In this document: piece after piece, positions 3,590 to 20,846 of the stretch
How positions within the stretch are numbered: position 1 is the first letter of the stretch
How the letters are laid out: each line of letters starts with the position of its first letter
Virus record (IMG/VR): IMGVR_UViG_3300036832_000314
Coordinates: 1-21,223 of that record
Origin: a virus
Direction: 5' to 3' (one strand)
DNA: 21,223 bases
Notes under the pieces: model-generated
Database searches by the model: none
Told to the model about the DNA's origin: nothing
What the model saw: only the letters and a program-made list of their open reading frames with translations
Program-made: the position numbers and the translations under genes

Positions 3590-4236
3590 TAGACTTGGAA
3601 TCGAACGTAATGCATCAGTAATGCATCGATGGCCCCCATGGCACCGCCTGCGCTGGCTGCGGCCTTAAAGAATGCGAGCGGGTCGTAGAACATGACTCGC
3701 GCCTCTTTGTGCGAAATAGATCGAATGCCTGATGTTTGCATTCGCATCGCCAGTGCGCGCATCTCCCAGATCACGAGTTCGGTGGCCTGCTTGAGCGCCT
3801 GCAGCGACGGGCGCGGATCCGTGGGCAGATCAAAGCCGCCGGTGTAGGTCACGAGGATGGGCTGCGGTGCGGCCGTGGCGAACGACCCGATCAGCTCGAG
3901 CTTGCCGCTGCGTTCCTCGAGCAGCCAGTCTGATGGATCAATCGGAGTGCCTTGCGGCGATTCCACGCCCTCGATGTCGGATGCCTTAGTCGGCCAATGG
4001 CTGAGATAGATCCGGTTCGAGCTCAGGCCAGTCCAGAGTTCACTCAACGTCTCCGTGGCAAAAATGCGATTGCATTTAACCGACACGGTATCGGACGCGC
4101 GCGTGATCCATTGCGCCATCTGAATATCGTTGGTCGTATCGGTGGTCGGAATGCCGAGCGTGATCTTCAATTCGTCCAGCGTCAGCAGATCGTAGGACGT
4201 CGCCGGCGTGATGATGGTCTCAACGGTATCAACCAT
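3589..4236 (-). CDS. gp6-like head-tail connector protein
   Basis: 215 residues. The start [17 protein letters not shown] and [21 protein letters not shown] match the opening helices of phage gp6-like connectors (consensus LxxLKxxLxI...D..I...I..A...I...), which form the ring under the portal. After a beta insertion (LTYTGG-type: [10 protein letters not shown], about residues 128-138) come helices [20 protein letters not shown] and a C-terminal part with [17 protein letters not shown]. It is longer than the usual 100-120 residue gp6 and closer to the 190-220 residue form found in many proteobacterial prophages. It overlaps the collagen-like gene upstream by 8 bases and the AT-hook gene by 1 base. 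The family is recognised from sequence pattern and position. Confidence 0.75.
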
Positions 4237-5758
4237 CGGCTTCCTCGTGGAATTGTTCGAACAGCGCGCGCAGCTCGAGCACCGGGCCTTCGTTGCCGTC
4301 GCTCAGCAGTGGGACGGCGCGATAGTTTTTGCCGTCGATCTTCCAGCTGACGATGCCGACGCCAGGCGGGCCCTGTTCGCCCTTTTCGCCGCGATCGCCA
4401 GGCTTGCCGCGATCGCCCTGGACACCGTGCGCGGTGATGAGCTGCCAGCCCTCACCAGGGCAATTGCCGGGATTGTCGACCTTGGCGATGAAGGCGCCGC
4501 GATCGCGGGCGACGATGTCGAGCCGCTTGTAAGTCTGATCCATGGCAAAGGTGCCGCGCACGATCGGCGTGAGACCATCGGCGCCGTCCTTGCCGTTCTG
4601 ACCATCCTGGCCTGGGGCGGCGAGGCAGACCCAATCTGGGTGCGGCGGCGTCTTCGCGGTGTCGGCGATCGCCTGGTAGAGGCCGCCGGCATGCGTGACG
4701 ACGTCGCCATCGTAGTGCACCGCGTCCGGCGTGAAGGCTTTTACCCGCGGCAGTTTCCCGGGTACGCCTTGGTCGCCCTTCTCGCCTTTCTCTCCTCGAG
4801 TTCCAGTCTCGCCGGCGCCGCCGCGCAAACCTTGTGGGCCTTGTGGACCCGGCGCGCCTGGCCGGCCGTCGCCCCCGCGCTCGCCTGGCATCCCGCGCGC
4901 GCCCTGCTCCCCGGGCAACCCTCGCTCACCCTGGATCCCGGGGATCCCCTGCGCTCCTGGCACGCCTGGCGCACCTTTAGCGCCGTCCTGGCCGCGTTCG
5001 CCGGCGAGGCCTGGCTCACCAGTCGCCCCGGTCTCGCCGCGCTCACCACGCGCGCCCTGAGGCCCGGGAGCCCCGGTCTTACCCGGATTGCCCATGAGAC
5101 CCGTCATCCCGCGCTCGCCGGGCGGGCCCTGCACACCTTGCTCACCCTTCGCTCCCCGCTCCCCCGGCAAACCCTCTGGCCCCGGAAGTCCGGTCAAACC
5201 ATCCTTGCCGCGCTCACCTGGCGGACCTTGCTCTCCGCGCTCGCCTGGCGCCCCGGGCACGCCAATGTCTCCGCGGCCGCCTTGCGGGCCCGGAGCTCCA
5301 ACGTCACCGGGCGGCCCCATGCGCCCGATCAAACCGCGCTCGCCTTGCACCCCCTGCAGACCCTGCTCCCCTCGAGCTCCGGTCTCGCCTGTCTCACCGC
5401 GGTCGCCGGCGACGCCTTGCGGGCCCGGCAAACCTAATCCTGGACGTCCACGCTCGCCCTGTGGGCCGGGCGGGCCCGGCTCTCCAGGCAACCCATCGCG
5501 ACCATCGGCGCCATTGTGAAGGCCGGCCAGGCGCTCTTCCACCAGGGTCCTGACCGTGCTGCTCCAGGACATGATTTCGGCGCGGAGCTCTGCGCGGAGC
5601 TCGGCCATTGTGAGCGCACGCTCACGCGACCACTGATGGCGCTCCTCTTCGAGCACCTGGCCGAGGGCTAGCCGAAATCCGTCAAGGACGGAGAAGTCGG
5701 CGTCGTCCGATTCGATCTGCTGCGGCCCGGATCCGTTGGAATTCTCGCTGGGCGTCAT
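4229..5758 (-). CDS. Collagen-like repeat virion protein with CBM-like modules
   Basis: 509 residues from the ATG at 5758; a longer reading from 5845 adds a basic Arg/His-rich stretch that is only the portal gene read in another frame. Residues about 20-80 form a charged helix (coiled-coil candidate: [18 protein letters not shown]). Residues about 83-334 are roughly 83 Gly-X-Y triplets with a single slip (GRPGLGLPG); GER, GPQ, GPP and GAP are frequent. Then comes a module [17 protein letters not shown]...PPHPDW, like a CBM5/12 carbohydrate module, a short collagen patch, a second similar module ([17 protein letters not shown]...GEGWQL), another collagen patch and a C-terminal beta-rich end. 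It is likely a trimeric fibre on the head or neck, by analogy with other phage collagen-like fibres. The 77-base overlap with the portal gene is long, so the start is the least certain part; an ATG at 5608 is an alternative. Confidence 0.8.
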
Positions 5759-7106
5759 CGGGCTTTGCCTGTGGTTGTGGTTTAGCGGGTGCCGCTGGCG
5801 GTGCTGCAGGCGGCGCATGCGGCGCGGGCGCTGCAGGAATTGCATTGGCGGCGCTCAATGGGACGACTTGTTGTTGGACTCTGGGCTCGCTGCCTGCCTC
5901 GACCGAATCCATCCCCTCTTCATTTCTCGCTTCATTCGGGCTGTACACACCGCCCTGAACACCGCGCACGAGTCCTTCGATCCGGTCTTTGTATGCAGAG
6001 CGCAGCAGCACCTTGGTATCGAACTCTGCCCATTCGTCGGGCTGGCCTTTCAGATTAAACAAACATCCGAACGCCTCTTCCACGTGCGACAGCGCAAAGC
6101 CAAGCCCGGTCGCAATCCACTCCTGCATCATGATTTCAGTGTTGCCGTGCGGAGCGCCTCCGAGGCCGAGGATCTGCAGCGGCACGCGATAGACCAGCGC
6201 GATATGCTGCTCGGTGAACTTCAACACGTCGGCGATCGCCGCGTCGCGTCCGAGAATGGTCCATGGTTGGACTTTTAAACCGGCGGTGAGAATTGGCGTC
6301 CCTCCCGCCTGCAGCAACTTTGTTTGCTCATTCCATCGATCGCGTAGGTGTTGGACCTGCTCCTTATCCAGCACGAGGTCAGTCGACAGCACGGCAGAAG
6401 GGCGCGCCTGATTGTTATAGAAGCCGAGCTGCTGTGAGATGATCGCCGACTGGGTCGCCACGTCGGTCATCGCAGCCATCAACGGGCTCTCGCCGACCAG
6501 CGGAAACGGCCAGCGTGACCGCGCGGTGTGCAAACGCATATGCAGCACATCGCGTTGCGGCACTATGACCGGCTGTTCGCCCAGCCGATAGTTGACCACA
6601 TGGTTGCCAGCGAGCCGATAGAACACATCGCCGGTGGTCGTGACCTGCGGCCAGCACTGTATCGGGTTCATCACGTGCAGTTCGTTGATTTCGAACCGCT
6701 CGTTTCTCACCGCGAGCGCGTATGCATTTCCATCCAGATACATCATGCGAACCATGTTCAGCATGAAGTCGGAAATCGATTGGTAATCGTTGGGCCTTTT
6801 CAAAATGCGCGAGAGCGCCGAGTTGGTGACGCGAGTGCGGCCACCTTTTTCGTTCGCGCGCCAGTGCGCGCCCGGACACATGGCAACCGTTTGTGAGTAG
6901 GCCGACACGCATGCTTCAACAATTGCGGACTGTGCGTCCTGCGGGATCGGCATCCCGCCCATCTGCCACCAATTCCACCAGCTGCCGACTTCGGTTGGAA
7001 GCCAGCCGCCGGTGATTGGTAATTGCCACGGTCCAGGCGTGTAGTCGCCGTCCGCTTTGCGGCGGAAGCGGTCGACCACACGCGACAGGACCGCAGGAAC
7101 ACGCAT
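5682..7106 (-). CDS. Portal protein, HK97 type
   Basis: 474 residues. It forms the dodecameric portal ring for DNA packaging and exit. Family-typical segments include [18 protein letters not shown] near the N-terminus, [67 protein letters not shown], the stem/crown region with [19 protein letters not shown], and [16 protein letters not shown] at the end of the core. The last 55 residues are Pro/Ala-rich and then basic. Length and order fit the Phage_portal (HK97) family. It lies downstream of the capsid gene rather than just after the terminase, unlike the common terL-portal-protease-capsid order. It starts 6 bases after the stop of the small upstream gene and overlaps the collagen-like gene at its 3' end. 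Confidence 0.92.
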
Positions 7107-7491: not shown

Positions 7492-10032
7492 TCACGCCCA
7501 AGTCGGACTGGTCAGCGTGGCGACCATGCCGGCGCGTCGGTAGATCCAATTCGCTTGCATGATCATGCGAACGCCGATAGTGTCCGTCTGCCAGAGCGAC
7601 CGCGTCGGTGAAGCGACCGTCCCTGGTGAACCACTCGCAATCGCCAGCGGCGTCGTGTCCTCCATGTGTAGGACAGCTTGGTCTGATACGTCGAACCGCG
7701 GAGCCGCTTCAGTAACTGAAGCAAAATCCGCCGCGTCCAACATCATCACCGTATTTGCTGGAACGACCGTTGACGAAACGATCGGCACGCCATCCAAGGA
7801 ACCGCCGTTAACTTCCTCGCGGAACGGAGTATCGCCGGTCGTAGTGTAGACGAGGCTCGCCGACTTCTTGAGCTGCGGCGTTGTGATGAAGACCGGAGAG
7901 CGGATGTTATCGTTGGTGATCGCTTGCAGAGCGCCCCACAGTGCCTTGAGATCGCCCAGCATCGCCATGACCGGAGCAGTGCCGGCGGCAGTCGGGGGCA
8001 CCACTGTTGCACCCAGTCGCAGGCCTGCAGGTCGGATGACGGTCGCCGGATTGGCGTCGAGTAAGACGGAATCCAGCGCGACACCGGTATCACGAAGGAT
8101 CGCTTCACGAATTAATCCTTCGATGGCCGGCGTACTGTGCTCGCTCAGTTCGCGAGTAAATGTGCTGATCACAGCCATCTTTTTTGGCGTGAGTTGCACT
8201 GTCGCGAATTGCCCTTGGCGCACGGGTATTGGAGCGCCTTCGCCGACGAAGGATCCGCCGAGCGATGGCGTCCCAAGACGCATTGGGAGATTGATCACGC
8301 CGTTGCGGCCGAACGTAAACTGCGAACCGCGTGACGCGACAGCTGGGTAGACCGAATGGGGGAGCAATGCGTCGATGAAATCCATCCACACTTGCGTAAC
8401 CAATTCAGCTGCCCATCCCGCCTGTGGGATTGTCGCCGGCGCCGAGGCCGCACGTGTGATCATTGCCATCACGCCGCGCGTGCGTTCGTCTTCGCCGTAT
8501 TCCTCCTTCACGATCTCGAGGATCGGCCGCTTCTGCTGCTCGGTGTGGTGCTTGAGCTGACAGGTCAGCGAGCGCCACAAGTAATCGAGCGGCGTGATCT
8601 TCTTCTCCGGTGCCGCCCAGGCCTTCCCACTGGGCGAATTGCGCACGACCAGAGCACGCGATGTATCATGACCATTACCGTTCGGCTTCTTGTCGTCACC
8701 GTCGGGCTCGATCATCTGGTGCTTGACGAGACGCGCCTCGGCAGCTTTCAGGGTGTCGAGTAGTAGTTCCTCCTGCGCGACTTTCGCGGTGAGGTCTTTC
8801 GTCTTCTGCATATCCTCAGGGGAGGCGGTCTCGTCAACGATCTTGCCGAGATGCTCAGTGAGGTCGTCACGATAACGCACCAGCCGCTGCTCTGAGTCGG
8901 GGATGCGTTGTCCAAGCATTCCTGTCATCGGTTTATCTTTCGATGAATGGTGAGTGGCGGCAGGCTTGCCGGTGAAACCGCGCCGAGTAACCCCGTCCGT
9001 CCTGCCAGGCTTGGCAAAGACAAGGTCGATCGTTGCGGGCGAAACGTTGAGCGACTTTGCGACGGCGAGCGCATTTGGGTTCGCTGGCACAGCCACTAGG
9101 GACGTCTCAACGAGTTCTTGTTTGTGGAAGCGTTGACCGCTCCACGGATCTTTCGGATTGAGTGGGCTATGATCGAGCGGGCGGAAACCGACCGACACGG
9201 CCTTCAGGATTCCGGCCTCGACCAATTTGCGGATTTCGTTGATGCGCGGCGAGGTGCCCTTGGGGGCCAACTCAAGGTGCCCGCGCAGCTGATTGCCTTC
9301 GATGCGCAGCCGGTGCCACCGACCTACAATAAAATCTGGATGGTGATTGAATAATGCAATCGGATTGGATTTGAACGATTCAAGCTCCCAGCCCCCGGCC
9401 TCGATGATATCGCCCATCCTGTCTGGGGTGTCGTCGGATAGCACGTACTCAGCGCCATTCACCTCGCCGACGTGGGTCTTTTGCAAAACCTTCTTGGGAT
9501 CAATCTTGCGCTCTTCCATATCGTCCTCGCCGCCGCCGCCGTTGCCGTAATTGTCCCAAATGAGCTCGCAGGTTTCTTCGGGCAGATCCTGCAGACAACG
9601 ATCATAAAAATCGTCTTCGCTCTCGCCTTCCTCTGGCCGAATGCGATAGTCGTCGTCTGGTCCGAATTCCTGTTTGTGTCTCGCGCGAGGATTGCCGTGC
9701 AGCCCGACAGGATTGCCGTGGACTTGGCTTTCTTCCCAGACTATCGAGCACTGATCTGTGGCGCGCTCCTCGGTCACGTCTGGATCTTTCATTGCGTCAG
9801 GCACGCAACGGGCCAAAAAGGTTTTGAAATCTTCGCCTTTCTTTGGTGGTTGCACAGAGAGCGCCGCAGCTTTGTCCTTTGGCTCAGGCTCACCCTTGGC
9901 GTCACGCCAGGTACTCAGACAAATCGCGACGCATTGATCTTGTGGCCGCTTTCCATCCTGCATAAGTTCACTGACACAATCGTGCATAAACTCAGACTGG
10001 GTTTCGTCTTTTTTTGGTTTTCTGATAGGCAT
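7492..10032 (-). CDS. Prohead protease-major capsid protein fusion (HK97 fold)
   Basis: 846 residues. Residues 1-171 carry three copies of a Cys/Trp motif: FMHDCVSELM...QCVAICLSTW (15-42), FLARCVPDAM...DQCSIVW (72-99) and FYDRCLQDL...CELIW (142-159). Residues 172-345 are a U35-type prohead protease: MEERKIDPKK start, catalytic His in ALFNHHPDF (230/231), Ser in GILKAVSVGF (280) and the closing ETSLVAVPANPNA. Residues 369-846 are the capsid protein: a helical delta region (369-500), then SFVGEGAPIPV, QLTPKKMAVIST, LLDANPATVIRPAGL and LHMEDTTPLA...SPTRSLWQT. AGGAGG lies six bases before the ATG at 10032. Internal ATGs at 9519 (M172) and 8928 (M369) match the usual starts of separate protease and capsid proteins, so extra products are possible. 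The protease would be expected to cut itself and the delta domain away from the shell protein. Confidence 0.9.
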   Translation of the reverse strand: MPIRKPKKDETQSEFMHDCVSELMQDGKRPQDQCVAICLSTWRDAKGEPEPKDKAAALSVQPPKKGEDFKTFLARCVPDAMKDPDVTEERATDQCSIVWEESQVHGNPVGLHGNPRARHKQEFGPDDDYRIRPEEGESEDDFYDRCLQDLPEETCELIWDNYGNGGGGEDDMEERKIDPKKVLQKTHVGEVNGAEYVLSDDTPDRMGDIIEAGGWELESFKSNPIALFNHHPDFIVGRWHRLRIEGNQLRGHLELAPKGTSPRINEIRKLVEAGILKAVSVGFRPLDHSPLNPKDPWSGQRFHKQELVETSLVAVPANPNALAVAKSLNVSPATIDLVFAKPGRTDGVTRRGFTGKPAATHHSSKDKPMTGMLGQRIPDSEQRLVRYRDDLTEHLGKIVDETASPEDMQKTKDLTAKVAQEELLLDTLKAAEARLVKHQMIEPDGDDKKPNGNGHDTSRALVVRNSPSGKAWAAPEKKITPLDYLWRSLTCQLKHHTEQQKRPILEIVKEEYGEDERTRGVMAMITRAASAPATIPQAGWAAELVTQVWMDFIDALLPHSVYPAVASRGSQFTFGRNGVINLPMRLGTPSLGGSFVGEGAPIPVRQGQFATVQLTPKKMAVISTFTRELSEHSTPAIEGLIREAILRDTGVALDSVLLDANPATVIRPAGLRLGATVVPPTAAGTAPVMAMLGDLKALWGALQAITNDNIRSPVFITTPQLKKSASLVYTTTGDTPFREEVNGGSLDGVPIVSSTVVPANTVMMLDAADFASVTEAAPRFDVSDQAVLHMEDTTPLAIASGSPGTVASPTRSLWQTDTIGVRMIMQANWIYRRAGMVATLTSPTWA

Positions 10033-10059: not shown

Positions 10060-10551
10060 ATGCTAACTGCGCGGCGATTGCGAGAGCTGCTGGATTACAA
10101 TCAAAGAACCGGGCGCTTTATCTGGCGTGTGAACCGACAAGGACGTTGGGGGCGCGTTGGCGCTAAAGCTGGAACGATCAAAAGCAACGGCTACCGGCAA
10201 ATCTGCATTGATCAGGATATTTATTTGTGCGGTCGATTAGCGTGGCTGTGGATGACGGGGCGATGGCCGAAAGTAACCGTCGATCACATCAACTGTATCA
10301 AGGCCGACGACCGCTGGTGCAATTTGCGTGAGGCCACTCATTCACAGAACGGCGCGAACCAACATGATCGAAAGAGCCGTGTGCCGTTCAAGGGCGTGAC
10401 GTGGGTCAGTAGGGATAAAAACTATCAAGCGGCCATCCGCATCAACTATCGCACGATCACTCTCGGTCGCTTCGATACTCCTGAAGCCGCCCACGCGGCC
10501 TATCGCAAAGCCGCTAGAAAGCATTTCGGCGAGTTCGCTAGGTTCTCATAA
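10060..10551 (+). CDS. HNH homing-type endonuclease with AP2 DNA-binding domain
   Basis: 163 residues from the ATG at 10060, chosen because AAGGGGA lies eight bases upstream and the protein starts with the usual RLRELLDYNQRTGRFIWR of this family. The frame is also open upstream to 9472 but that part is antisense to the capsid gene. HNH core: VTVDHINCIKADDRWCNLRE with D75-H76 and N88, then HSQNGAN (N97, N100). Residues about 105-155 form an AP2 domain (FKGVTWVSRDKNYQAAIRIN...TLGRFDTPEAAHAAYRKAA). It would cut double-stranded DNA at a specific site and promote its own copying. It is the only gene against the direction of the operon and overlaps the 3' end of the methyltransferase gene by 14 bases, as expected for an inserted mobile gene. 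It could act in trans on the intron site in the sheath gene, but nothing here proves it. Confidence 0.92.
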   Translation: MLTARRLRELLDYNQRTGRFIWRVNRQGRWGRVGAKAGTIKSNGYRQICIDQDIYLCGRLAWLWMTGRWPKVTVDHINCIKADDRWCNLREATHSQNGANQHDRKSRVPFKGVTWVSRDKNYQAAIRINYRTITLGRFDTPEAAHAAYRKAARKHFGEFARFS

Positions 10552-11110
10552 ACGCCAACCACGTTCCGGCAATGCTGGTGATCGGCCAGCCTTCGTTGCT
10601 CAGCTGATCGAGCGCGGAAGTCACCTCGACTGAATCATTCTGATAGTCGTGCCAGACGATCACGCCGCCTGGCCGCAGCAGCGCGCGCGCGAGCATGCTG
10701 TCGTGGAGCACCGCTTCTAAAGAATGATCGCCATCGATAAAGACCGCGTCACACGGTTCGAGATCTTCCGGCTCGAGCTCCTGCGATCCTGTTTTTCGGA
10801 TCAGCAAATAGAACCGCGGGTCATTTTCCGCATAGAGACCAGGCGACGCTGGCACTTCGCTCTGCTGTCCGGGCAGCGTCGTCTTGTACTGGAACGGCAC
10901 GTCGATGCCGATGTAGGCCTCGAGCGACGGCACACGCTCGAGGATCGCCTTGGCCGTGCGTCCGAGCTGACAACCGATTTCGATCATCACCTTCGGGTAG
11001 ACGCTCTGCACCAGGCCGGCCAGCAGCGCGGTTTCGGTTGCGGTCAGATACGTGCTGCCGGGCACATTAAACAGCACAAGGCTGAGCTCAGCGTGCTTGG
11101 CGGTCAGCAT
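10538..11110 (-). CDS. Class I SAM-dependent methyltransferase
   Basis: 190 residues from the ATG at 11110; that ATG overlaps the upstream stop as ATGCTGA. A frame start at 11212 would lie inside the upstream gene and is not needed. Rossmann-type motifs: VMIEIGCQLGRTA (41-53, SAM-binding motif I), YIGIDVP (66-72, acidic residue for the ribose), CDAVFIDGDHSLEAV (110-124) and LLRPGGVIVWHDYQ (134-147). This resembles the Methyltransf_24 group, often found near glycosyltransferase genes and acting on sugars or small molecules. The target is unknown. It is coupled to the glycosyltransferase-like gene and may modify the same product. Its 3' end meets the HNH gene tail to tail. Confidence 0.8.
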   Translation of the reverse strand: MLTAKHAELSLVLFNVPGSTYLTATETALLAGLVQSVYPKVMIEIGCQLGRTAKAILERVPSLEAYIGIDVPFQYKTTLPGQQSEVPASPGLYAENDPRFYLLIRKTGSQELEPEDLEPCDAVFIDGDHSLEAVLHDSMLARALLRPGGVIVWHDYQNDSVEVTSALDQLSNEGWPITSIAGTWLAFMRT

Positions 11111-12162
11111 GGCGGGATCTGTGCAAAGGCGCTCGACCAGTCGCCGGCGGTGAGCTGCGGGCATAGCTTCAGCACTGGATGCCATGGATTGCCGTTGAGC
11201 CATCGCCAACACATCACTTGCGGCATTACCCCGAACGCGTTCGGGTGACCGATGGCGCCGGCGATATGCAGTGTGGCCGTGTCGATGCTCACGATCTCGT
11301 CCATCAGCGACGCGATCGCGGCCATGTCGGCGAAGTCTTCGATCGGCGGCGTGACAACGCCTTGCTCGCGGGCCTCGTCCTGAGCGAACGTCTGCAGGCT
11401 GACGACGGACCAGTCCCGCGGCACCGGCAGGAGTGCCAAGAATTCCTTAAGCGGCACGCTGCGCCAGTAGTTGAGATCGCGAAGGCTCGACCAAGAGATG
11501 CCGACGGCCGGCCGCTTGATTTGTTTGCTCCAGTGCGCCCGCAGCTCGGGGTCTGGCTTGAGATACGCGCCGATCGGAATGTGCTCGGTCGAGTGCCCGA
11601 GGATCCGCATCAGGTCGAACAGCTGGCATTGCACATCGAGCTCGCCGATGTTGCCGACCATCGGCGCCAGCTGCCGCGCCAGGCGCTCGAGCTCGGGCGG
11701 CATAGCGAGCGCGACGTCGATCCCCATGGCCTGCAGCGCGGGGACGTACCTCAACATCATGATCGCGTCGCCAAACCCAGCCTCGTGGATCAGCACCAGG
11801 CGCTTGGCGCGCAGATCTTCGCCGCCCCACAACGGGAGATCCCGCTGCAGGCGCCGGCCTGGCTCCCATTGCTTGGCAAACAGCACGGAGCGGGCCTGAT
11901 ATTCGCAAAACCCTTCCCGATAGCGTCCGAGCGCCAAAAGGGTGAGAGCTCGGTTCCAATGTGCGTTCGGGCTTTCGCCTGCTTCGAGCGCCTGATCCAA
12001 GGCGGTCAGGGCAGCGGTGAAATCGCCGCCCCTAATCAGGGGACGCGCGGTTTCGATCCACTCGCAATGCCGTTCGAATTCGGCGTCGCTGCTGAACCGA
12101 TAGGGATTGAGCGTGATTGTTCTCTTCTGGCAACGTAGTTTGCCGCGACCTTGAACAGCCAT
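11104..12162 (-). CDS. TPR protein with glycosyltransferase family 9-like domain
   Basis: 352 residues. Residues about 30-90 are TPR-like helices (FTAALTALDQALEAGESPNA, HWNRALTLLALGRYREGF). Residues about 118-330 resemble the GT-B fold of heptosyltransferase-type (GT9) enzymes: LVLIHEAGFGDAIMMLRYVP (122-141) fits the G.GD.I...R..P motif, and SIDTATLHIAGAIGHP (282-297) fits the C-terminal S.DT...H.A...G.P motif that binds the nucleotide sugar. RPAVGISWSS marks the start of the second Rossmann half. TPR-GT9 proteins are known in phages and alphaproteobacteria, but their acceptors are mostly unknown. In a structural operon, glycosylation of a virion protein or of the host surface is a reasonable guess. 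The start at 12162 is uncertain; only the core is firm. Confidence 0.7.
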   Translation of the reverse strand: MAVQGRGKLRCQKRTITLNPYRFSSDAEFERHCEWIETARPLIRGGDFTAALTALDQALEAGESPNAHWNRALTLLALGRYREGFCEYQARSVLFAKQWEPGRRLQRDLPLWGGEDLRAKRLVLIHEAGFGDAIMMLRYVPALQAMGIDVALAMPPELERLARQLAPMVGNIGELDVQCQLFDLMRILGHSTEHIPIGAYLKPDPELRAHWSKQIKRPAVGISWSSLRDLNYWRSVPLKEFLALLPVPRDWSVVSLQTFAQDEAREQGVVTPPIEDFADMAAIASLMDEIVSIDTATLHIAGAIGHPNAFGVMPQVMCWRWLNGNPWHPVLKLCPQLTAGDWSSAFAQIPPC

Positions 12163-12247: not shown

Positions 12248-12406
12248 CTATTTTTCGGGTTTTGACGAGCGATAGAGCTCGGCCGCACCTTTGGCCATAT
12301 GCTTGATCTGTTCGTCGGTCATACGATCCGGCTCGTCTGGATCATCGATCCACGGCGCGCTCTCGAGTTCAAACTTAGGCTTCTTAGGCTTCTTCTTCTT
12401 TGCCAT
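12248..12406 (-). CDS. Small lysine-rich protein (52 aa)
   Basis: ATG at 12406, stop TAG at 12250-12248. It starts with MAKKKKPKKPKFELESAPW, goes on with an acidic DDPDEPDR segment and ends in a helix MTDEQIKHMAKGAAELYRSS. AGGGA lies just upstream of the ATG. It overlaps the end of the 496-residue gene by 23 bases in another frame; the lysine run reuses the AAGAAGAAG that encodes the EEE end of that gene. No family is recognised. The strongly basic N-terminus followed by an acidic part might bind DNA or a capsid partner, but this is a guess. Confidence 0.5.
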   Translation of the reverse strand: MAKKKKPKKPKFELESAPWIDDPDEPDRMTDEQIKHMAKGAAELYRSSKPEK

Positions 12407-13874
12407 GTCCCTGGATCCGGCGCAGCGCCTTGGCGTAGTCGGTGTCGAGTTCTTTCACGCGCGCGCCCATGTGCTTGTATAGCACCTTTTCCGGGTTCCA
12501 CCATGTAGCCTGCGCGGCAGCTGGCTCGAGCGTAATGCCCTCGGTTTTCAGCTTATCGATGGCCTTGCCAAAAACGTCGGTGATCCAGGCTCGGTGATTG
12601 CCACCCCTCGGCGCCTCGACCATCGCGCCACCGTAGTTGTGATCGAACCGCTCCGCGGCGTGCACCAGCTCGCTCTTCTTGCGTTTACCAGATTTGTACT
12701 GGTCGTGATGCTCCTTATAGTCGTGCTCGTGCTGCTCGACGATTTTCTCGGCGACCTTCTGCAGCGCATCTAGGCTTTTCGGCGCGCGCTTGCCTTCGTC
12801 CTTGAGCGCGTTGCGTAACCGATCAGCGACCGGACCCATATCAGTCTGACCGATGCCGGTGCCGGTCATGCGACCCCACGCGCGCATGAACCAGATATCC
12901 ATCGTCAGCGGTTTGAAATTGCCGTTTAGGTTTTGATAGAAGCCGAGGCCGATTTTTGGCCCCAGCACCGCGGAGCCGTTCACGACGGCATCGGCGAGTG
13001 TTTTTCCAACCTTAAAGCCAGTGGCCTTGGCCAGATCGCGCACAGTGTATTCTTGATCGAAAAAGTCCTTCACCTGCGCTGGGCCACCGAACTCCTTGAT
13101 CAGTTCGTTCATCTTTTTGAAGTTGCCGTTGATGGCTGGATCGGCGACCTCCAGATCGGTTGGGAATTCCCCAGTCTTACTGTAGTGCTCATAGGCGAGC
13201 TCGGTCAGCCTGGCGCTCGAGTCGACGACCTCGCCCTGGCTGGTGATCGCCAGCGCCGCGATATAGGCGAATTTTTTGTTGGCATCCGATGCCAGCTCTG
13301 GATGCATTTCGGCCGCAACACCCATCGCCTCCTTCATCTTGTCGGAGTACCAGGTCGGCGAGGAGTGGCCGTTGCTCAGCCCGCGCTTGATATCGTGCGC
13401 CAGCGCACTCGCCAGATACTCGTCTTGCTCGGGTGTGTGGGTTTCCTCTGTGATCTCGCGCACCCCGAATTTTTTCTCGAGGATGTCGCCGGCGCGTTCG
13501 TTCAGCTCTTTGGCGACTTCCGGCACGGCGCGCGAGTTTTGTTTGTATGCCGGGATCTCCTGCATGATCCGTTCGCCGCCCAGATCGGCCCCGGCGGCGG
13601 CGGCGAACTCACCACCGATGGGCTGACCACCCGGCTCATGATACGGATTGAACTTTGCAAAGTAGTCCTGCCAGTTTTTTTCTTCGCGCCGCTTCGCATT
13701 CTTCTCGTCCATGTAGGCGCGGAATTTGGCGCGGCGTGCCTCGTCATGCGTGTGTGAGTACTTTTCCAGCGGCGACAGCCAATACGGCAGCTTGTTCTCG
13801 AGCTCCAACGCCAGAATATCGACGGATCTAATCTGTCCGTCTTCGCCAGGATGATTTGGTTTCGGCTTTGCCAT
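12384..13874 (-). CDS. Putative virion-associated effector, HhH-like domain (tentative)
   Basis: 496 residues, no sure family. The N-terminus has an aromatic segment LPYWLSPLEKY (29-39), a charged helix rich in Lys/Arg/Glu, then WQDYFAKFNPYHEPGGQPIG (68-87), which resembles the tag segments in the neighbouring 996-residue protein. The middle is helical (for example ANKKFAYIAALAITSQGEVV). Residues 289-338, with GFKVGKTLADAVVNGSAVLG, KIGLGFYQNLNGNF and TMDIWFMRAWGRMTG, recall helix-hairpin-helix DNA-glycosylase folds (GxGxKxA..., then a VDxHxxR-like block with D326), but this was not tested. The C-terminus is charged and helical. It lies 3 bases after the stop of the ART gene and is surely cotranscribed. 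Most likely a protein carried in the head or injected with DNA, by its context and tags. Confidence 0.6.
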   Translation of the reverse strand: MAKPKPNHPGEDGQIRSVDILALELENKLPYWLSPLEKYSHTHDEARRAKFRAYMDEKNAKRREEKNWQDYFAKFNPYHEPGGQPIGGEFAAAAGADLGGERIMQEIPAYKQNSRAVPEVAKELNERAGDILEKKFGVREITEETHTPEQDEYLASALAHDIKRGLSNGHSSPTWYSDKMKEAMGVAAEMHPELASDANKKFAYIAALAITSQGEVVDSSARLTELAYEHYSKTGEFPTDLEVADPAINGNFKKMNELIKEFGGPAQVKDFFDQEYTVRDLAKATGFKVGKTLADAVVNGSAVLGPKIGLGFYQNLNGNFKPLTMDIWFMRAWGRMTGTGIGQTDMGPVADRLRNALKDEGKRAPKSLDALQKVAEKIVEQHEHDYKEHHDQYKSGKRKKSELVHAAERFDHNYGGAMVEAPRGGNHRAWITDVFGKAIDKLKTEGITLEPAAAQATWWNPEKVLYKHMGARVKELDTDYAKALRRIQGHGKEEEA

Positions 13875-13877
13875 CCG

Positions 13878-16868
13878 CTAGGCCGCATGTTGCTGCAATG
13901 GCAATCTATCGAACGTCGGTGCTGTCTGGTGCCATGCATCCCATCCCTTCCAAGCGGTGCCGGCGACCACGACTTCATGCTCACTTTGCATGTTGATGCC
14001 GTAGGCGGGAACTGACACGGCAGCGGTGCGCGGGACCAGGGCACGCAACACGATCTTGCCTGCGCTTTTTCCCTTCCAATTATTGGCGACACTTGGATCA
14101 GTTGTCGTTGACGCGGCACCGTTGCGCTCGACGTGCATATTCGGCAGCAGCCGGCCCGAACCACCACCCAAGAATGGGATGGTAGTCACGGCTTGTTTGA
14201 ATCTCTTGGCAACATCTTCAGCTGGAAGCACGATGCCGCGATACAGCGGCAATTCCTTCACGTTCGCTTTGTCGAGCAAATACTGCGTCACTTCCCATTT
14301 GGCGCGCACGTAGGCCTTGACGCCTTTATAACCGCCGATGGCCTCGTAGCGTTTGTTTGCCATCGCCTGCAACGCATCGCGACTTTCATCGAGTTGTTCC
14401 TCGCGTAACCGGCCGCCAAGTTCATCGGCGGTCGCGAGTTGCAATAGCTGCCCATTCTGACTAGTCGAGCTGTCTTTCCATGAGCGCCAAAGCCTGCCAT
14501 CAAGGTCTTCCAGATAACTTTCCAATGCGCTCGCATTTTCTTTCAGGTACGGCGCGCTTGAATCAACGGCCACTAATTCCTCTTTGGACGGCAGTAGATC
14601 GCGCGCCTTCAGCACTTCCGCTGCGCGATGAATTGATAGATAGCGCGCGAGGGCTTGCGTTCGCCTGTAATCGTTGCCGCTGGTCTCGTTCAACGGATCG
14701 AATTTGTTTGGCATTGCCACGATGTAATCGTAACCTTCCGATCCATATTTTGTCGTGACCTCCTTTTCCAGATCGCTGATAATTTCAGTATTGTCAGTCA
14801 CGTACTTAAACTTCTGCTTGTCCGACATATTGGAATCCCAATCTTGCTCCAGATACTCGTCGGCGCTCTCTCCCAAATAATCAGGCGGCGTAATGTTATC
14901 CACGATCTTTTCGGCACGTTCGATAAAAGCGGCCTCGATTTGATTGACAATATCCTTGCGCATTTCATCGGTCAGATGCTCGGACAACACTTCTGGCTCA
15001 ACACCTGGCAGCGTCATTTGCTCTGGCGGCGGCGCGTTCGATGGTTCCTTGAGTTTGTCATCATCGAAGGAAATATCGAGCCCTTTCGTGTTGCTCATCT
15101 CGTAGCCCTGCGCGGCATCGCTTTGATCGATGGTCAAGGCCTCGATTAGTTGTTCATTGGTATAGGGGATTTTTGGTTCGCCGTTTTCTTCACGCGCTTC
15201 GTTCAATTCAGTCAGAGCTTCGTCGGCCCAATCCGTCTCGCCGCCGTCATTGAAGTCGTTAGCTACCAACGTCTTGGCTTCATACGGCGCGTCGTTCTCC
15301 ATCCAATTCTGCGTTTCGCTATCCAAATAGGATTCGTGGTTGTGCTTGATGTAGTGCTCCTTGGCTTCTTCTTGTTGGTCGTTACTCATCATGTCCCACT
15401 CTTCGGGAACAGCAATCTCATCTTCATCGTCCTCGCCGCCCGGCTTAGGTGCCTCCTCACCAATTCCTTCTTGTGCGATCTTTTCGATGGCTGGCTTGGC
15501 GCTCTTATATTCGGCCTCGAGCCGTTTGGCGGTCGCCTTGTTCCACTCGTCGCCGCCAACGGCGATCACCGCCGGATCGATGGCGTGCTCAGCTTCGCCG
15601 CCGCCACCGCCAGACGTCCATTTGCCACCCGGATCGCGCGGCTCATCTGATACATCGTGACCTGGTTGCTTGACTCCGTACTCATGAAAATATGCGAGCC
15701 AATAATCGAGGGGCGCGTCTTTCGACGTTGTCTCCTCGGTCGCTGGCTTGTGGCCTTTGCCGCCGGTGAACTTTTCTGCTTCCTGCAGCAGCTTGATAAT
15801 CGGGATATCGACGCGCGCGATTTTCAGCTTGGTGTCGTTGGTCAGATCGCCGTCGGCTGCATCGAGGCCGAGCTTGCCGGCCCAGTGATGGTGACCATCG
15901 AGGATGTAGTCGTCCCTCGAGATGATCAGCCGCTTGCTCTGGTGCTCGGGCTTTTCCTGCAGCTTTTCCATGATCGCCGCCACCTTGGCGCCATTAACCT
16001 CGTTCTGGGTGGCGCGCAGGTTGGCTGCGAATTCTTTGCCCTTCTCGATCTTGTAGCCTTTGTCTTTCAGATATTGGCGGAACGCCTTTGTTTGCTCGTC
16101 GTCCATCTGCGGCATTTTTATGCGCGGGATCCCCTTGGTCTGCGCACAAAACAGATTGGTGCCGGCGACGCTGACGTTGCACAGATTGTAGACCGGCGCG
16201 GTCTTGCCCTGCTTTTTGAACTCCTGCGCCTGCTTGCCGAGCTCCTTGATCAGCGTCGACACCTGCTTGGGTTGCTTGAGCTCGACCTTGCGGTCCTCGG
16301 CGAGCGCACGCGCTGCGTCGTGCACGTTGTTGGTATGGATGACGCCCTTGGCGTCGACGTAGGCGTCCTTCGAATAGCCCTCGCCGGGATGGTCGTCGGT
16401 AGCGTTGCCGCCGTCGGTCCAGCGGCCGTGCGGATCTCGCGGCTCGTCGGGATCGAACGCTTTTTGAGCTGTCAATAACTGACAGTCAGAATCGCCCCCA
16501 CGCGGGGTTTCTGGCACCCCGCGTCGCGGCGCGCCGTAGTTTTTATTCCAGAGCGCCTCGCATCTCGCGATGGCTTGCTCTTCGCTGGTATTGCCGCCCT
16601 CGTGCATCTCCACGCAGCGTTCCATGAAATCGTCATGGGCTTCATCGCGACCGGGTTTTTCCCTGGCATCAAAAATGTGGAGGCAGATTGCGATGGCTTG
16701 GTCTTCGTCAAAGCCAGCGGCCTCAGCATCCGGGACACATTCGTTCATCCATTCGGTATGTCCACTGGGCCCGCCGCGCGGTCCGCTGCCCGGCCCGCCG
16801 CGTTCACTCACCTTGTGATGGTGCGCGAAGTACTGCGTCCAGTAGTTGAGTTCTGGATCATGCGTCAC
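13878..16868 (-). CDS. Large ParB-like/ADP-ribosyltransferase multidomain protein
   Basis: 996 residues, GTG start at 16868 with AGAGG upstream. Order of parts: aromatic tag LNYWTQYFAHHH (7-18); RGGPGSGPRGGPSGH (23-37); two Cys/Trp repeats, WMNECVPDAEAAG...AIAICLHIF (40-66) and FMERCVEMHEGG...AIARCEALW (81-107); tag DEPRDPHGRWTDGG (141-154); a ParB/Srx-like domain with YILDGHHHWAGKLGLD (321-336) and VDIPIIKLLQ; a second tag LDYWLAYFHEYG...DEPRDPGGKWTSGG (387-421); a long acidic helical region; and a C-terminal ADP-ribosyltransferase of the R-S-E class: LYRG with R877, AASTTTDPSVA (S920-T-T) and EHE (E963/E965). The ART would transfer ADP-ribose from NAD+ to a protein target. It is probably packaged in the head and injected, as known for T4 Alt and other polyvalent phage proteins. 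The domain order is visible; the role is inferred. Confidence 0.85.
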   Translation of the reverse strand: MTHDPELNYWTQYFAHHHKVSERGGPGSGPRGGPSGHTEWMNECVPDAEAAGFDEDQAIAICLHIFDAREKPGRDEAHDDFMERCVEMHEGGNTSEEQAIARCEALWNKNYGAPRRGVPETPRGGDSDCQLLTAQKAFDPDEPRDPHGRWTDGGNATDDHPGEGYSKDAYVDAKGVIHTNNVHDAARALAEDRKVELKQPKQVSTLIKELGKQAQEFKKQGKTAPVYNLCNVSVAGTNLFCAQTKGIPRIKMPQMDDEQTKAFRQYLKDKGYKIEKGKEFAANLRATQNEVNGAKVAAIMEKLQEKPEHQSKRLIISRDDYILDGHHHWAGKLGLDAADGDLTNDTKLKIARVDIPIIKLLQEAEKFTGGKGHKPATEETTSKDAPLDYWLAYFHEYGVKQPGHDVSDEPRDPGGKWTSGGGGGEAEHAIDPAVIAVGGDEWNKATAKRLEAEYKSAKPAIEKIAQEGIGEEAPKPGGEDDEDEIAVPEEWDMMSNDQQEEAKEHYIKHNHESYLDSETQNWMENDAPYEAKTLVANDFNDGGETDWADEALTELNEAREENGEPKIPYTNEQLIEALTIDQSDAAQGYEMSNTKGLDISFDDDKLKEPSNAPPPEQMTLPGVEPEVLSEHLTDEMRKDIVNQIEAAFIERAEKIVDNITPPDYLGESADEYLEQDWDSNMSDKQKFKYVTDNTEIISDLEKEVTTKYGSEGYDYIVAMPNKFDPLNETSGNDYRRTQALARYLSIHRAAEVLKARDLLPSKEELVAVDSSAPYLKENASALESYLEDLDGRLWRSWKDSSTSQNGQLLQLATADELGGRLREEQLDESRDALQAMANKRYEAIGGYKGVKAYVRAKWEVTQYLLDKANVKELPLYRGIVLPAEDVAKRFKQAVTTIPFLGGGSGRLLPNMHVERNGAASTTTDPSVANNWKGKSAGKIVLRALVPRTAAVSVPAYGINMQSEHEVVVAGTAWKGWDAWHQTAPTFDRLPLQQHAA

Positions 16869-16876
16869 GCGAGCCT

Positions 16877-18511
16877 CTAACCGATCAAACTATCGATATC
16901 TATGGGCTTCTGTTGTTTGGTGAGCGCGATGTTGAGCGCCATAGCGAGCGCGACCAGGGCATCGATGCGGCCGACCGATTTTGCCTTATCGAACTTTTTG
17001 CCGCCGGCGGGATCCTTGGTGATCACGGCGTTGACCGCGCACATCTGCAGCACCGGGTGATTGCCGTGGCGAATTCGTTTCTGAGCAATCAATCGATCAA
17101 CAATTTCGACGGCTGGAGTCATATCCTTATAGCCCTGCCCGTGCTCCACGAGCGGCACCAAGCAACCAATCTTATCAAGCTCGCGTTTGAGATCGAGAAT
17201 GCGCCAGCGGTCGAACGCGAGGCCCAAGATTTTATTCTGACCGTTTATCTCCGCGATGCGGCGCGCCACCGCTTCGGGATCAGTAGTGACGCCGGCCGGG
17301 GTGATCAGTTTCTGCCGCGCCCAGCTCTCGTACGGCATGCGCTCTTCGTCGGAGCGATCACGCAGGTTGCCGGGGATCCAGCAATGCGGCACTACGTGCG
17401 CTACGCCATTGGCATCGATGAAGACCAGCACCAGCGCGGTGAGATCGCGCGTGCCGCCGAGGTCGAGGCCGGCGTAGACGGGCGCGCCTTGCGGGATCAA
17501 TGGCTGCTCGCCGCACTGCTTCCACACCCGCATTTCGACGAACCTGGTTTCAGCTGCGACCCGCTGATTGAGGATTAGATTGCGGAACGCGTTCTCTTGG
17601 CTCGGCATGCGCTGGGCTTGCTTGGCCAGGCGCCTCACGTCGGGGAGACTGCGGAAATCGTTGAGCGCGGGATTTGCTGCTTTCCAGGTCTTGAGCGTCC
17701 ACGGGTCGGCGTCCTCGGGCGCCGTATAGAACGTGAGATGGAACGAGGGATCCTTGATCTCGCCCGCGTTGACCTTGAGCCCGTAATCGATGAGCTGAGA
17801 CATCGGCGCGAAGTCATCTGCAGCCTGTGTCGAGATCACGAGGAGCAACGGATTTTTTCTGGCACCTAGCGCGCTATCCATCGCATCATAAAGTGCGCGA
17901 CTCGAGGTTTGACCAAGCTCATCATAGACGATGAAGGATGGGTTTAATCCCATCTTGGTTTTATGTTCGGCAGTGAGCGCCGAGTAGATCGAGCCGTTGC
18001 TGAGATCCTCGATGTCTTTGCGGAAGCGAACGACGTTGGTCTGCTCCGAGAGCCAGGGGTGATTCTGGATCAGCGCGACCATCTCGTTAAAAATTTTGCC
18101 GGCCTGGAAGCGATCGTTAGCGCAGGAATAAATCTCGCCGCGGCTTTCTGCTTCGGGACCGCTGAGGTGGCAGAGCGCCAGCGCCGCAGCGAGCTGGGTT
18201 TTGCCGTTTTTGCGCCCCATTGAGAGGATTGCGGTGCGGACTGGTCGCTCACCGTCTTCGGTCTCGCGATAGACGGCCCGAATGAACGCCTTCTGCCACT
18301 CCCTCAACCTCAGCTTCTTGAACGCCTCCTCACCGCTCGTAATAGTCAAGTCCTCGCAAAAGACGATAACCCGCTCGGCACGTGTTAGCGTCGGATCTGA
18401 CCATGGGTGAATGCGTTCGGAGAACGTCACTAGGCCCTCGGCGCGGCCGACCAGGCTCTCCCGCTTTGCTAACGTCTTTGCGCCAATTCCTCGCAGGCCC
18501 ATGCAGCACAC
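16877..18511 (-). CDS. terL: Terminase large subunit (HK97-type, Terminase_1)
   Basis: 544 residues. It is the motor and nuclease that packages DNA into the prohead. ATPase: LSMGRKNGKTQ (Walker A, residues 97-106), PSFIVYDELGQ (Walker B with D187-E188) and LLLVISTQA (coupling motif, about 212-220). Nuclease: VYAGLDLGGTRDLTA (355-369) with D360, ILGLAFDRWR, and a final acidic VGRIDALVALAMAL. It starts with GTG at 18511, one base after the stop of a 32-residue peptide gene; an ATG at 18502 is an alternative. No small terminase gene was found in the window; upstream lie a glycine-rich protein and a capsid-like gene instead. The call is very safe. Confidence 0.96.
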   Translation of the reverse strand: MCCMGLRGIGAKTLAKRESLVGRAEGLVTFSERIHPWSDPTLTRAERVIVFCEDLTITSGEEAFKKLRLREWQKAFIRAVYRETEDGERPVRTAILSMGRKNGKTQLAAALALCHLSGPEAESRGEIYSCANDRFQAGKIFNEMVALIQNHPWLSEQTNVVRFRKDIEDLSNGSIYSALTAEHKTKMGLNPSFIVYDELGQTSSRALYDAMDSALGARKNPLLLVISTQAADDFAPMSQLIDYGLKVNAGEIKDPSFHLTFYTAPEDADPWTLKTWKAANPALNDFRSLPDVRRLAKQAQRMPSQENAFRNLILNQRVAAETRFVEMRVWKQCGEQPLIPQGAPVYAGLDLGGTRDLTALVLVFIDANGVAHVVPHCWIPGNLRDRSDEERMPYESWARQKLITPAGVTTDPEAVARRIAEINGQNKILGLAFDRWRILDLKRELDKIGCLVPLVEHGQGYKDMTPAVEIVDRLIAQKRIRHGNHPVLQMCAVNAVITKDPAGGKKFDKAKSVGRIDALVALAMALNIALTKQQKPIDIDSLIG

Positions 18512-19674: not shown

Positions 19675-19782
19675 TCACGTCATCGTGCACAGGTAGAGCT
19701 CGGTTGCGATCAGCAGCGCCAGCGCAATCAGCAGCAGCACCTTGACCAGCAGTGGCCACAGCCGGTCGTCGTCCTCAATCAC
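19675..19782 (-). CDS. 35-residue single-span membrane peptide
   Basis: A GTG start at 19782 overlaps the capsid-like gene's TGA (GTGA). The peptide reads VIEDDDRLWPLLVKVLLL, then IALALLIATELYLCTMT. It has an acidic N-terminus and one hydrophobic helix. It ends 3 bases before the glycine-rich gene. Like the 32-residue peptide, it is a tiny membrane protein placed between structural genes, coupled by stop-start overlap. Its function is unknown; a start at a GTG without its own ribosome site makes translation depend on the upstream gene. Confidence 0.55.
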   Translation of the reverse strand: MIEDDDRLWPLLVKVLLLIALALLIATELYLCTMT

Positions 19783-20846
19783 CACGCGGTGATGCCGGAC
19801 ATCCACGCAACCGCTGCCGGATCGCGGAGCGCCCAATTAAGGGCGAACCGCACCTTCAGCCCCACGCTGCGCGTCTGCCACAACGACCTTGTCGGCGAGG
19901 CCACCACGCCAGGCGAGCCACTGATCGGCAACGGATTCGCCCCTTCCATGTGCACTGTGGCGTCGCGGCTCGCGCTGATCTGTGGCGCGCCGTCGGTCAC
20001 CGTGACCAGACCCTGCTGCCCCACGCATACGACTTGATCATCGGGGATCTGGTTGGACGGCATGATGTCAACGTCGCGATACGGTGCACCTTCCGTGAGC
20101 AAATACCAAGCAGACCGCAAATACACGTTAGTGGCCCTGGCTGGGCTCATGACGAATGCGATCCGGCCGCCTACATGCGAGACAATGCCGGCGAGTTTTG
20201 ACATATCGGCAATCATCCCCTCGTTGCCGGTGGCCGTGCTGGGCGTGATCCCGGCAATCCCGTTGCGCAGCCCTGGCGGCCGGTTGGCGGTCGCAGGGTT
20301 GGCGTCGAACATCACCGCATCAGTGGCGATGCCGATCGAACGCGTCAGGACGTCCCGCACATAGGCCTCGGCGTTGGACGCCTCGAGCAGCTCCTCCGTC
20401 AGGACCACAATCGATGAAAGCTTTTTCGGCGTCATCGACGCGCCGCTGTCCTGCAGCTGCACGACCGGGATCGGCGCGCCTTCTCCAACGTACGCGGTCG
20501 CCACGGCCGTCGCCGCAAAACTGGGCACCGAGACGTACGCCGCACCGTCGAAGGTGAAGCTCGGCGAATACTGGATCAGCCGCGCGCTCGCCGAGTAGGG
20601 CGTCATTGCCTCGATGAGTTCCGCGACCACGATCTTCGCTAGCGGGGCGGTCGTGCCAATGCCGGCCGGCGGTTCGCTTGAGGCCTTCACAATCCAATCG
20701 GCCACCTCGTCGTCGGGCCACTTCTGGCGCAGGAAGTCCGCTGGCTCGATGCCCTTGCCATACTGGGCGCGCGCGGTCGCAATGCAGGCCCGCACGACCG
20801 AATTGACCAGGCGCTCGCGGGTCGGGATCTTTGCCGGGAAGGTCAT
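19779..20846 (-). CDS. Second HK97-fold capsid protein (paralogue of the major capsid domain)
   Basis: 355 residues, ATG at 20846 with GAGG about six bases upstream. It shares a clear series of motifs with the capsid half of the fusion protein: YVGEGAPIPV, SMTPKKLSSIVVLTEEL, VMFDANPATANRPPGLRNG, TVHMEGANPLPI...GSPGVVASPTRSLWQT. It lacks the protease and most of the delta/scaffold part; only about 60 residues (MTFPAKIPTRERLV...WPDDEVADWIV) precede the capsid fold. It could be a second shell or vertex protein (as gp24 is to gp23 in T4), or a remnant of another phage's capsid gene. The reading frame is intact and motifs are conserved, so it looks functional. It is the first gene of the block and follows the repeat-rich leader. 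Confidence 0.85.
   Translation of the reverse strand: MTFPAKIPTRERLVNSVVRACIATARAQYGKGIEPADFLRQKWPDDEVADWIVKASSEPPAGIGTTAPLAKIVVAELIEAMTPYSASARLIQYSPSFTFDGAAYVSVPSFAATAVATAYVGEGAPIPVVQLQDSGASMTPKKLSSIVVLTEELLEASNAEAYVRDVLTRSIGIATDAVMFDANPATANRPPGLRNGIAGITPSTATGNEGMIADMSKLAGIVSHVGGRIAFVMSPARATNVYLRSAWYLLTEGAPYRDVDIMPSNQIPDDQVVCVGQQGLVTVTDGAPQISASRDATVHMEGANPLPISGSPGVVASPTRSLWQTRSVGLKVRFALNWALRDPAAVAWMSGITAW

Follow-up and report, generated by a model that had tools for sequence, protein, structure and literature searches.

We analysed a window of 21,223 bases, the whole of the IMG/VR virus record IMGVR_UViG_3300036832_000314, and found on its minus strand a gene for a 996-residue protein, P0001, in which two Cys/Trp (CW) repeats, a ParB/Srx-like module, a helical module and an ADP-ribosyltransferase (ART) domain are joined in one polypeptide that also contains two copies of a short tag. 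We infer that P0001 is probably a tagged effector polyprotein that is packaged in the phage head and ejected with the DNA, and both of its enzyme-like domains may be active. Head cargo is the probable role because the same tags also join toxins and anti-defence proteins to head proteins, and because the ART nearly always precedes a partner element, called IDIL here after its motif. The parts of the protein are as follows.

13878..16868 (including the stop codon), minus strand: P0001, putative effector polyprotein of 996 amino acids (aa), defined by a stop-free open reading frame (ORF) of 996 codons and by relatives
16524..16766, minus strand: two CW repeats, aa ~35-115, defined by hidden Markov model (HMM) and by direct match
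16407..16457, minus strand: tag 1, FDPDEPRDPHGRWTDGG, aa 138-154
15747..16388, minus strand: ParB/Srx-like module, aa 161-374, with its core at about aa 246-372 (LRATQ...YILDGHHHWA)
15597..15659, minus strand: tag 2, HDVSDEPRDPGGKWTSGGGGG, aa 404-424
14634..15578, minus strand: M1, a mostly helical module of ~315 aa, aa 431-745, defined by HMM and model
13896..14369, minus strand: R-S-ExE ART domain, aa 834-991
14238-14240, 14109-14111, 13980-13982 and 13974-13976, minus strand: ART residues R877, S920, E963 and E965, respectively

A first-pass annotation of the window had described a 996-residue protein encoded right after the terminase. It is indeed a single ORF on the minus strand, directly after the gene for the terminase large subunit (TerL); it begins with GTG 8 nt past the TerL stop codon, has an AGAGG-like Shine-Dalgarno sequence, and lies opposite a plus strand that is broken by stops across 13878-16868. 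The domains that had been named (two CW repeats, a ParB/Srx-like domain and an ART, with tags between them) were all borne out, and two features were absent from the inventory: the helical module (aa 431-745) and the partner element that the next gene carries. A Pfam search with full-length P0001 gave no match and one with its domains taken singly gave nothing convincing; phmmer against the PDB returned only noise, and a search of plasmids gave no match. Iterated HMM searches of the fetched loci found each P0001 module also on its own and in other combinations.

The ART carries the motifs of the R-S-E clade, with an arginine in strand 1 (YRG), S-T-x in strand 2 and (E)xE near the C-terminus. 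R877, S920 and E965 did not vary in 52 relatives, ten of which are distant domains of other phages, and E963 was at least 90% conserved among the same 52; the residue numbering given in the first-pass annotation was exact. Weak database matches converged on ARTs (DRAT, 1.3e-4, 8 members; ADPrib_exo_Tox, 0.025), and a weak match to PDB entry 2kxi, which we take to be the bacterial ART NarE, was aligned across LYRG and STTT. A model of aa 431-991 had a predicted local distance difference test score (pLDDT) of 86 and placed strands where an ART is expected to have them. When this model was compared with the PDB using Foldseek, 4 of the 18 matches listed were ART-fold chains, and PARP3, the Rhs toxin TreTu and IcmQ were among the matches listed. 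Four models in a viral library, which lack an ART annotation, matched at E<=2.2e-5, the top ones with a probability of 1.00 and E<1e-6, and one of the proteins matched has 1390 aa and a phage head morphogenesis domain. In established ART biochemistry the ExE motif goes with arginine as the target, which suggests that P0001 would modify arginine. Two other loci (L058 and L079) have giant ORFs, each with as many as three ART domains, that appear to be arrays of ART effectors, and the one in L058 (L058:1202-5896) is fused to a portal domain.

The ParB/Srx-like module was found more widely. PHROG 2859 matched P0001 over aa 225-371 (E=2e-26), 415 cultured-phage records matched the core at ~30% identity, and the module was present in at least 214 IMG/VR stretches. 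An AlphaFold2 model built from 14 relatives (pLDDT 82, predicted template modelling score 0.77) showed an alpha+beta fold with a DGHH/GxxR loop, in which DGHH is invariant in the family. AlphaFold modelling had been proposed as a check for a ParB fold, and the best PDB neighbours of the model in Foldseek were human sulfiredoxin (probability 0.96-0.97) and the N-domain of pNOB8-like ParB (probability at most 0.98); the ParB/Srx neighbours as a group had probabilities of 0.95-0.98 and E-values of 0.04-0.06 over ~100 residues. A DdrB-like ParB was rejected, as the family HMM did not match P1 DdrB at E<=100 and the active-site arginine is not conserved. Matches of the ParB alignment to DUF1889, ThiS, HSDR_N and protein A were below cut-offs or compositional and were also rejected.

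The strongest argument for these modules being made for the prohead is their relation to the following head genes of the window and their homologues.

16877..18511, minus strand: TerL (Pfam/PHROG)
5682..7106, minus strand: portal protein (Pfam/PHROG)
7492..10032, minus strand: prohead protease-major capsid fusion with N-terminal CW repeats

The CW repeats of P0001 were detected by HMM (independent E-values: first repeat 4e-5, second repeat 4e-15), and the second also gave a direct match to the N-terminus of the protease-capsid protein encoded in the window. Repeats of the same family are present in 54 of 60 non-redundant protease-capsid proteins. In 12 non-redundant ORFs the order tag-ParB-CW-(CW)-prohead protease-major capsid runs through a single frame, as in L072 (1111 aa), L139 (1182 aa), L144 (1183 aa) and L188 (1045 aa). 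ParB was encoded on the same strand as the protease-capsid gene (56 of 56 loci), TerL (30 of 30) and portal (38 of 38), and M1, which is found without ART in other phages, and the ART were likewise co-oriented with TerL, portal and protease-capsid genes wherever they share a locus. Capsid-precursor fusions, shared CW repeats and co-orientation together point to modules that are made for the prohead. CW repeats common to P0001 and the protease-capsid protein would also be expected if P0001 were a minor head or scaffold part whose ART and ParB folds serve as inactive binding modules, and the ParB active-site arginine that is not conserved agrees with this. We regard such a purely structural role as quite improbable, since the ART catalytic triad is invariant in 52 divergent sequences, neighbouring tagged proteins hold known toxins and an anti-defence enzyme, and the ART and ParB modules are freely swapped among proteins.

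A homologue of the ParB/Srx core appears to have been detected in virions. Protein CCD57662.1 of phage LIMEstone1 (Ackermannviridae) is 33% identical to P0001 over aa 246-398, and its record is annotated as a confirmed structural protein. Table 2 of PMC3296691 lists a 17.31-kDa unknown structural protein of LIMEstone1 with 35.57% coverage by 5 peptides; 35.57% corresponds to 53 of 149 residues, and 149 aa is the length of CCD57662.1. From length and coverage, the two are presumably the same protein, with a mismatch in numbering (ORF102 in the table, ORF101 in the record). Like P0001, CCD57662.1 has the ParB/Srx core, in its case in a protein present in virions; unlike P0001, it is a solo protein of 149 aa without tag, M1, ART or CW repeats.

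The tag has the core [FYD][DEV][PS]x[EQH]PRD[EDP]xG[RK]WT[DS]GGG, or PRDxxGRWT[DS]GGG in short. We counted it in ORFs of at least 150 aa from loci that had been fetched by protein homology and not by the tag; these loci partly overlap, and 87 contexts are distinct. There were 149 occurrences, compared to 0.6 in shuffled ORFs. Searched as a DNA pattern, the tag was present in 89 IMG/VR stretches, compared to 0 for the reversed peptide. Third codon positions of its invariant residues vary freely, and selection on the tag therefore acts on the protein; a repeat at the DNA level was rejected on the same ground. The tag is thus a modular element under protein-level selection. One tag was present in 186 of 223 non-redundant tagged ORFs and two to four in the other 37, and long Gly-rich linkers come after the tags. 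Among 139 non-redundant stretches behind tags were zeta toxins (7), ART-PolyVal (6), ADPrib_exo_Tox (6) and Acb1 (2) domains, and further cargo included GNATs, InPase, LPD3 and a CdiA-CT RNase; PHROG matches behind tags included a minor head protein, a head maturation protease and an Alt-like ART. Tags occur at the junctions of portal, MuF, protease and capsid proteins; several ORFs have one immediately after a portal domain, and in L047 the tag comes after a MuF-like HPNCRC end.

Three tagged loci are worth recording individually. An ORF at L185:10926-12185 (+) has an Acb1-type anti-CBASS domain (2e-35) behind a tag and also holds an ART and IDIL; the Acb1 domain is a candidate virion-borne anti-CBASS protein. 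In L004:5956-14133 (+), five successive tagged genes (ART, GNAT-like, others and zeta-toxin-like) follow TerL as an effector array. When the tag was used for tblastn against cultured phages, the single plausible match, a weak one (E 0.1), was in Nocardia phage P3.1, in which a "capsid maturation protease" (L138:5989-6699, +) starts with a degenerate tag, MARRKFNPRQPRDLRGRW.

These contexts bear on whether P0001 would leave the cell in which it is made. As in T4, in which ModA and ModB are the model for ARTs that act inside the producing cell, P0001 might be an unpackaged late effector whose ART and ParB domains redirect late transcription or stop superinfection in the producer cell, with the tags as flexible linkers. 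The long Gly-rich linkers after the tags and the translationally coupled partner described below would suit such control within the producer cell. We nevertheless consider this unlikely: tag and ParB are a covalent part of the protease-capsid precursor in the 12 ORFs above, tags join portal and MuF proteins to effector domains, the LIMEstone1 homologue is in virions, and the tag core shows amino-acid conservation that a passive linker would not.

What the tag itself does is more evenly balanced. That it is chiefly a cleavage site for the prohead protease, and not a packaging signal, comes close to an even chance in our judgement. A cleavage site would lie where the tag does, between domains (a protein may have as many as four tags) and between effectors and portal or MuF proteins, and processing during head maturation is annotated for DarA, an internal head protein of P1. 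A cut near the N-terminus of the solo effectors and of the Nocardia phage protein, where the tag is also found, would free little, and a targeting role like that of the T4 capsid targeting sequence (CTS) fits equally well.

The partner of the ART lies in the next gene, whose ATG is 3 nt past the ART stop codon.

12384..13874, minus strand: next gene, 496 aa, comprising an IDIL leader, a variant tag and a third module
13698..13823, minus strand: IDIL element (VDILALELENKLPYWLSPLEKY...R...), aa 18-59 of the 496-aa gene
13602..13652, minus strand: variant tag, FNPYHEPGGQPIGGEFA, behind the IDIL leader

A search for a leader with the regular expression LxYW..Y found nothing general; the element was revealed by an HMM of the next gene, in whose first 60 residues it has the consensus [IV]DIL.ME....LP[HY]WL[DS]P...R.K.R. 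In the fetched loci IDIL was directly downstream of 78 of 85 M1-ART ORFs; of the seven exceptions, two run off the contig, three carry IDIL as a fusion within the ORF of the ART itself, and two are loci without IDIL. At most junctions the ART and IDIL reading frames overlap by ATGA or TGATG (45 of 53 in one frame). Because these loci had been fetched with the ART, we scanned IMG/VR for IDIL independently of it and found the element in 32 contigs, all 32 of which carry the ART. The ART was upstream of IDIL in 31 loci; L287 starts 36 nt upstream of the element, and its ART was seen in L179, which is the same contig. Distances between IDIL sequences followed those between ARTs when corrected for capsid distance (partial rho 0.32, p 0.0015), compared to 0.04 for capsid distances corrected for ART. 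IDIL was not found without the ART, and we therefore rejected the idea that it leads tagged proteins in general. The variant tag of the FNPYHEPGGQPIGGEFA type also precedes the ART in L003, and the body of the 496-aa neighbour (12384-13601, minus strand) is a module that is also present in further tagged or multi-domain proteins (L008, L032, L074, L175, L199, L241 and L257).

The layout is that of a toxin and its immunity protein, with a small, obligately linked and translationally coupled downstream partner, which in the window is a leader and not a solo gene. Elsewhere IDIL occurs as a solo small gene, as the leader of the next tagged effector, or as the leader of the protease-capsid precursor (L139, L142, L144 and L195). 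Given these forms, IDIL may act as an inhibitor or as a docking peptide, or in both ways. A classical immunity protein that guards the producer or lysogen from the ART, with no packaging role, would account for its position, small size and start/stop overlap and for its co-variation with the ART and not with the capsid. We hold this to be a serious candidate that falls somewhat short of even chances. Against it, IDIL frequently stands at the N-terminus of the following tagged effector, or of the protease-capsid precursor, as its leader, and it is fused to the C-terminus of the ART in L185 and L191; such arrangements are more suggestive of a peptide for docking or handover.

In the sequence of events that we propose for head-packaged P0001, the protein would be made late together with TerL and the head proteins, and would be drawn into the prohead via its CW repeats, its tags or both, which it has in common with protease-capsid precursors. 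The prohead protease may cut it into units at the tags, and P0001 would then be ejected with the DNA. Its R-S-ExE ART would mono-ADP-ribosylate one or more host proteins, probably at arginine, and the ParB/Srx-like domain may act on a nucleic acid or nucleotide, for example by nicking host DNA or in anti-restriction, as infection starts. The co-translated IDIL peptide might restrain the ART or hand it to the capsid during assembly. The computations establish the domains, motifs, tag, recurrent fusions and IDIL linkage; the steps from packaging of P0001 and tag cleavage to injection, the two enzyme activities and the part played by IDIL are inferences. More tentatively, PRDxxGRWT[DS]GGG could be a transferable, protein-level capsid-cargo tag used by many phages, chiefly those of Alphaproteobacteria, for loading exchangeable toxins and anti-defence enzymes into the prohead, while a dedicated IDIL both silences the ART and tethers it to the protease-capsid precursor, the antidote being the packaging handle; we find this possible, on balance doubtful.

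Several observations weigh against the proposal that P0001 is an enzymatically active head cargo. The position of the active-site arginine (DGHHx) is H, T, N or R across the ParB family, and catalysis by this domain is uncertain because of this variation. The ART model had no significant match in the PDB (best E 0.5). IDIL was not detected in L177 and L261, two loci on one contig, and its fusion in cis to the C-terminus of the ART in two lineages (L185 and L191) is not predicted by a simple immunity-protein model. The earlier suggestion that the protein is likely to be carried in the virion and injected is well supported by its context, namely mass spectrometry of the LIMEstone1 homologue, the 12 protease-capsid fusions, the tags on portal and MuF proteins and co-orientation.

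P0001 is not unique, because ParB, M1 and ART are joined in one ORF in ~17 non-redundant environmental IMG/VR phage ORFs. The first-pass annotation had proposed a new architecture among polyvalent phage proteins, which was half right: a polypeptide with ParB, M1 and ART encoded between TerL and protease-capsid genes does have the make-up of a polyvalent protein, and the ParB-ART fusion recurs and multi-domain head effectors with ART or ParB have been published (Iyer et al., 2017). M1-ART relatives were found in 62 IMG/VR loci, and the ART was rare in related genomes (1 strong match in 399). A prophage of Bradyrhizobium sp. BRP22 (NZ_JADYVX010000002.1) has the same gene order, with TerL, tag-M1-ART, IDIL, CW-protease-capsid and portal. 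Hosts named for the tag in the genome scan were mostly Alphaproteobacteria (Bradyrhizobium, Methylobacterium, Azospirillum, Afipia and Hyphomicrobium), with a few others.

In the direction of transcription, the window encodes a second capsid-like protein, a Gly-rich protein, TerL, P0001 and the 496-aa protein, followed by TPR/glycosyltransferase-like and methyltransferase-like ORFs, the protease-capsid protein, the portal protein, a collagen-like ORF and a head-tail adaptor. The second major-capsid-like protein (19779-20846, minus strand; Pfam Phage_capsid, 2e-8) stands alone upstream of TerL. The TPR/GT9-like and methyltransferase-like ORFs (10538-12162, minus strand) overlap each other between the effector genes and the protease-capsid gene. 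The collagen-like protein (4229-5845, minus strand), which has long GXX repeats, is encoded between portal and head-tail adaptor, and its gene overlaps the portal gene by ~160 bp in a different frame.

If the proposal is correct, the tag would be a sequence signature for virion-borne effectors in uncultured phages, where most such effectors lack annotation; zeta toxins, ARTs and an Acb1 anti-CBASS protein are candidates for virion cargo that it has already picked out. Some counter-defence would then reach the cell ahead of all phage gene expression, and the tag, like the T4 CTS before it, could be tried as a handle for putting proteins into these heads. The obligate pairing of ART and IDIL raises the testable question of how a toxic cargo enzyme is kept silent while the particle is built.

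The general idea is already covered by polyvalent proteins (Iyer et al., 2017; PMC5512222) and MuF toxins (PMC5576092). Polyvalent proteins are multi-domain proteins encoded beside virion genes and predicted to be packaged in the head and injected, and like P0001 they combine ART, ParB/Srx and other effector domains (including a peptidase in the published set). Published polyvalent ARTs belong to the H-Y-D clade, R-S-E ARTs being stated to be absent from genuine polyvalent proteins (PMC5512222), and their ParB domains are DdrB-like, whereas P0001 has an R-S-E ART and a ParB domain that is not DdrB-like by HMM. Text searches of PMC5512222 did not turn up a shared short tag, CW repeats or a protease-capsid fusion, and the open-access papers that we searched, with the terms we used, described neither the tag nor a CW-mediated link, and neither the IDIL partner nor fusions of ParB to protease-capsid proteins. 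The nearest functional parallel is found in T4, in which Alt is a head-delivered R-S-E ART (PMC3012670; PMC9503650, which reviews head-packaged ARTs), and in the internal proteins of T-even phages, which are diverse defence proteins with only the capsid targeting sequence in common (PMC3012670). A head-delivered ART and a short shared targeting sequence are the points of likeness; the sequences are unrelated, and unlike the T4 CTS the tag of P0001 is internal, can be repeated, joins several domains and occurs in phages with a protease-capsid fusion. MuF polymorphic toxins (PMC5576092) have variable effectors, including ARTs, and a small downstream ORF as a candidate immunity gene, in which they resemble P0001. 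Their effectors are attached to a head protein, and a MuF domain, sought in P0001 with Pfam and PHROGs, was not found there. In contrast to the MuF case, the element downstream of P0001 is a single conserved family, IDIL, which can fuse to the next effector or to the capsid precursor.

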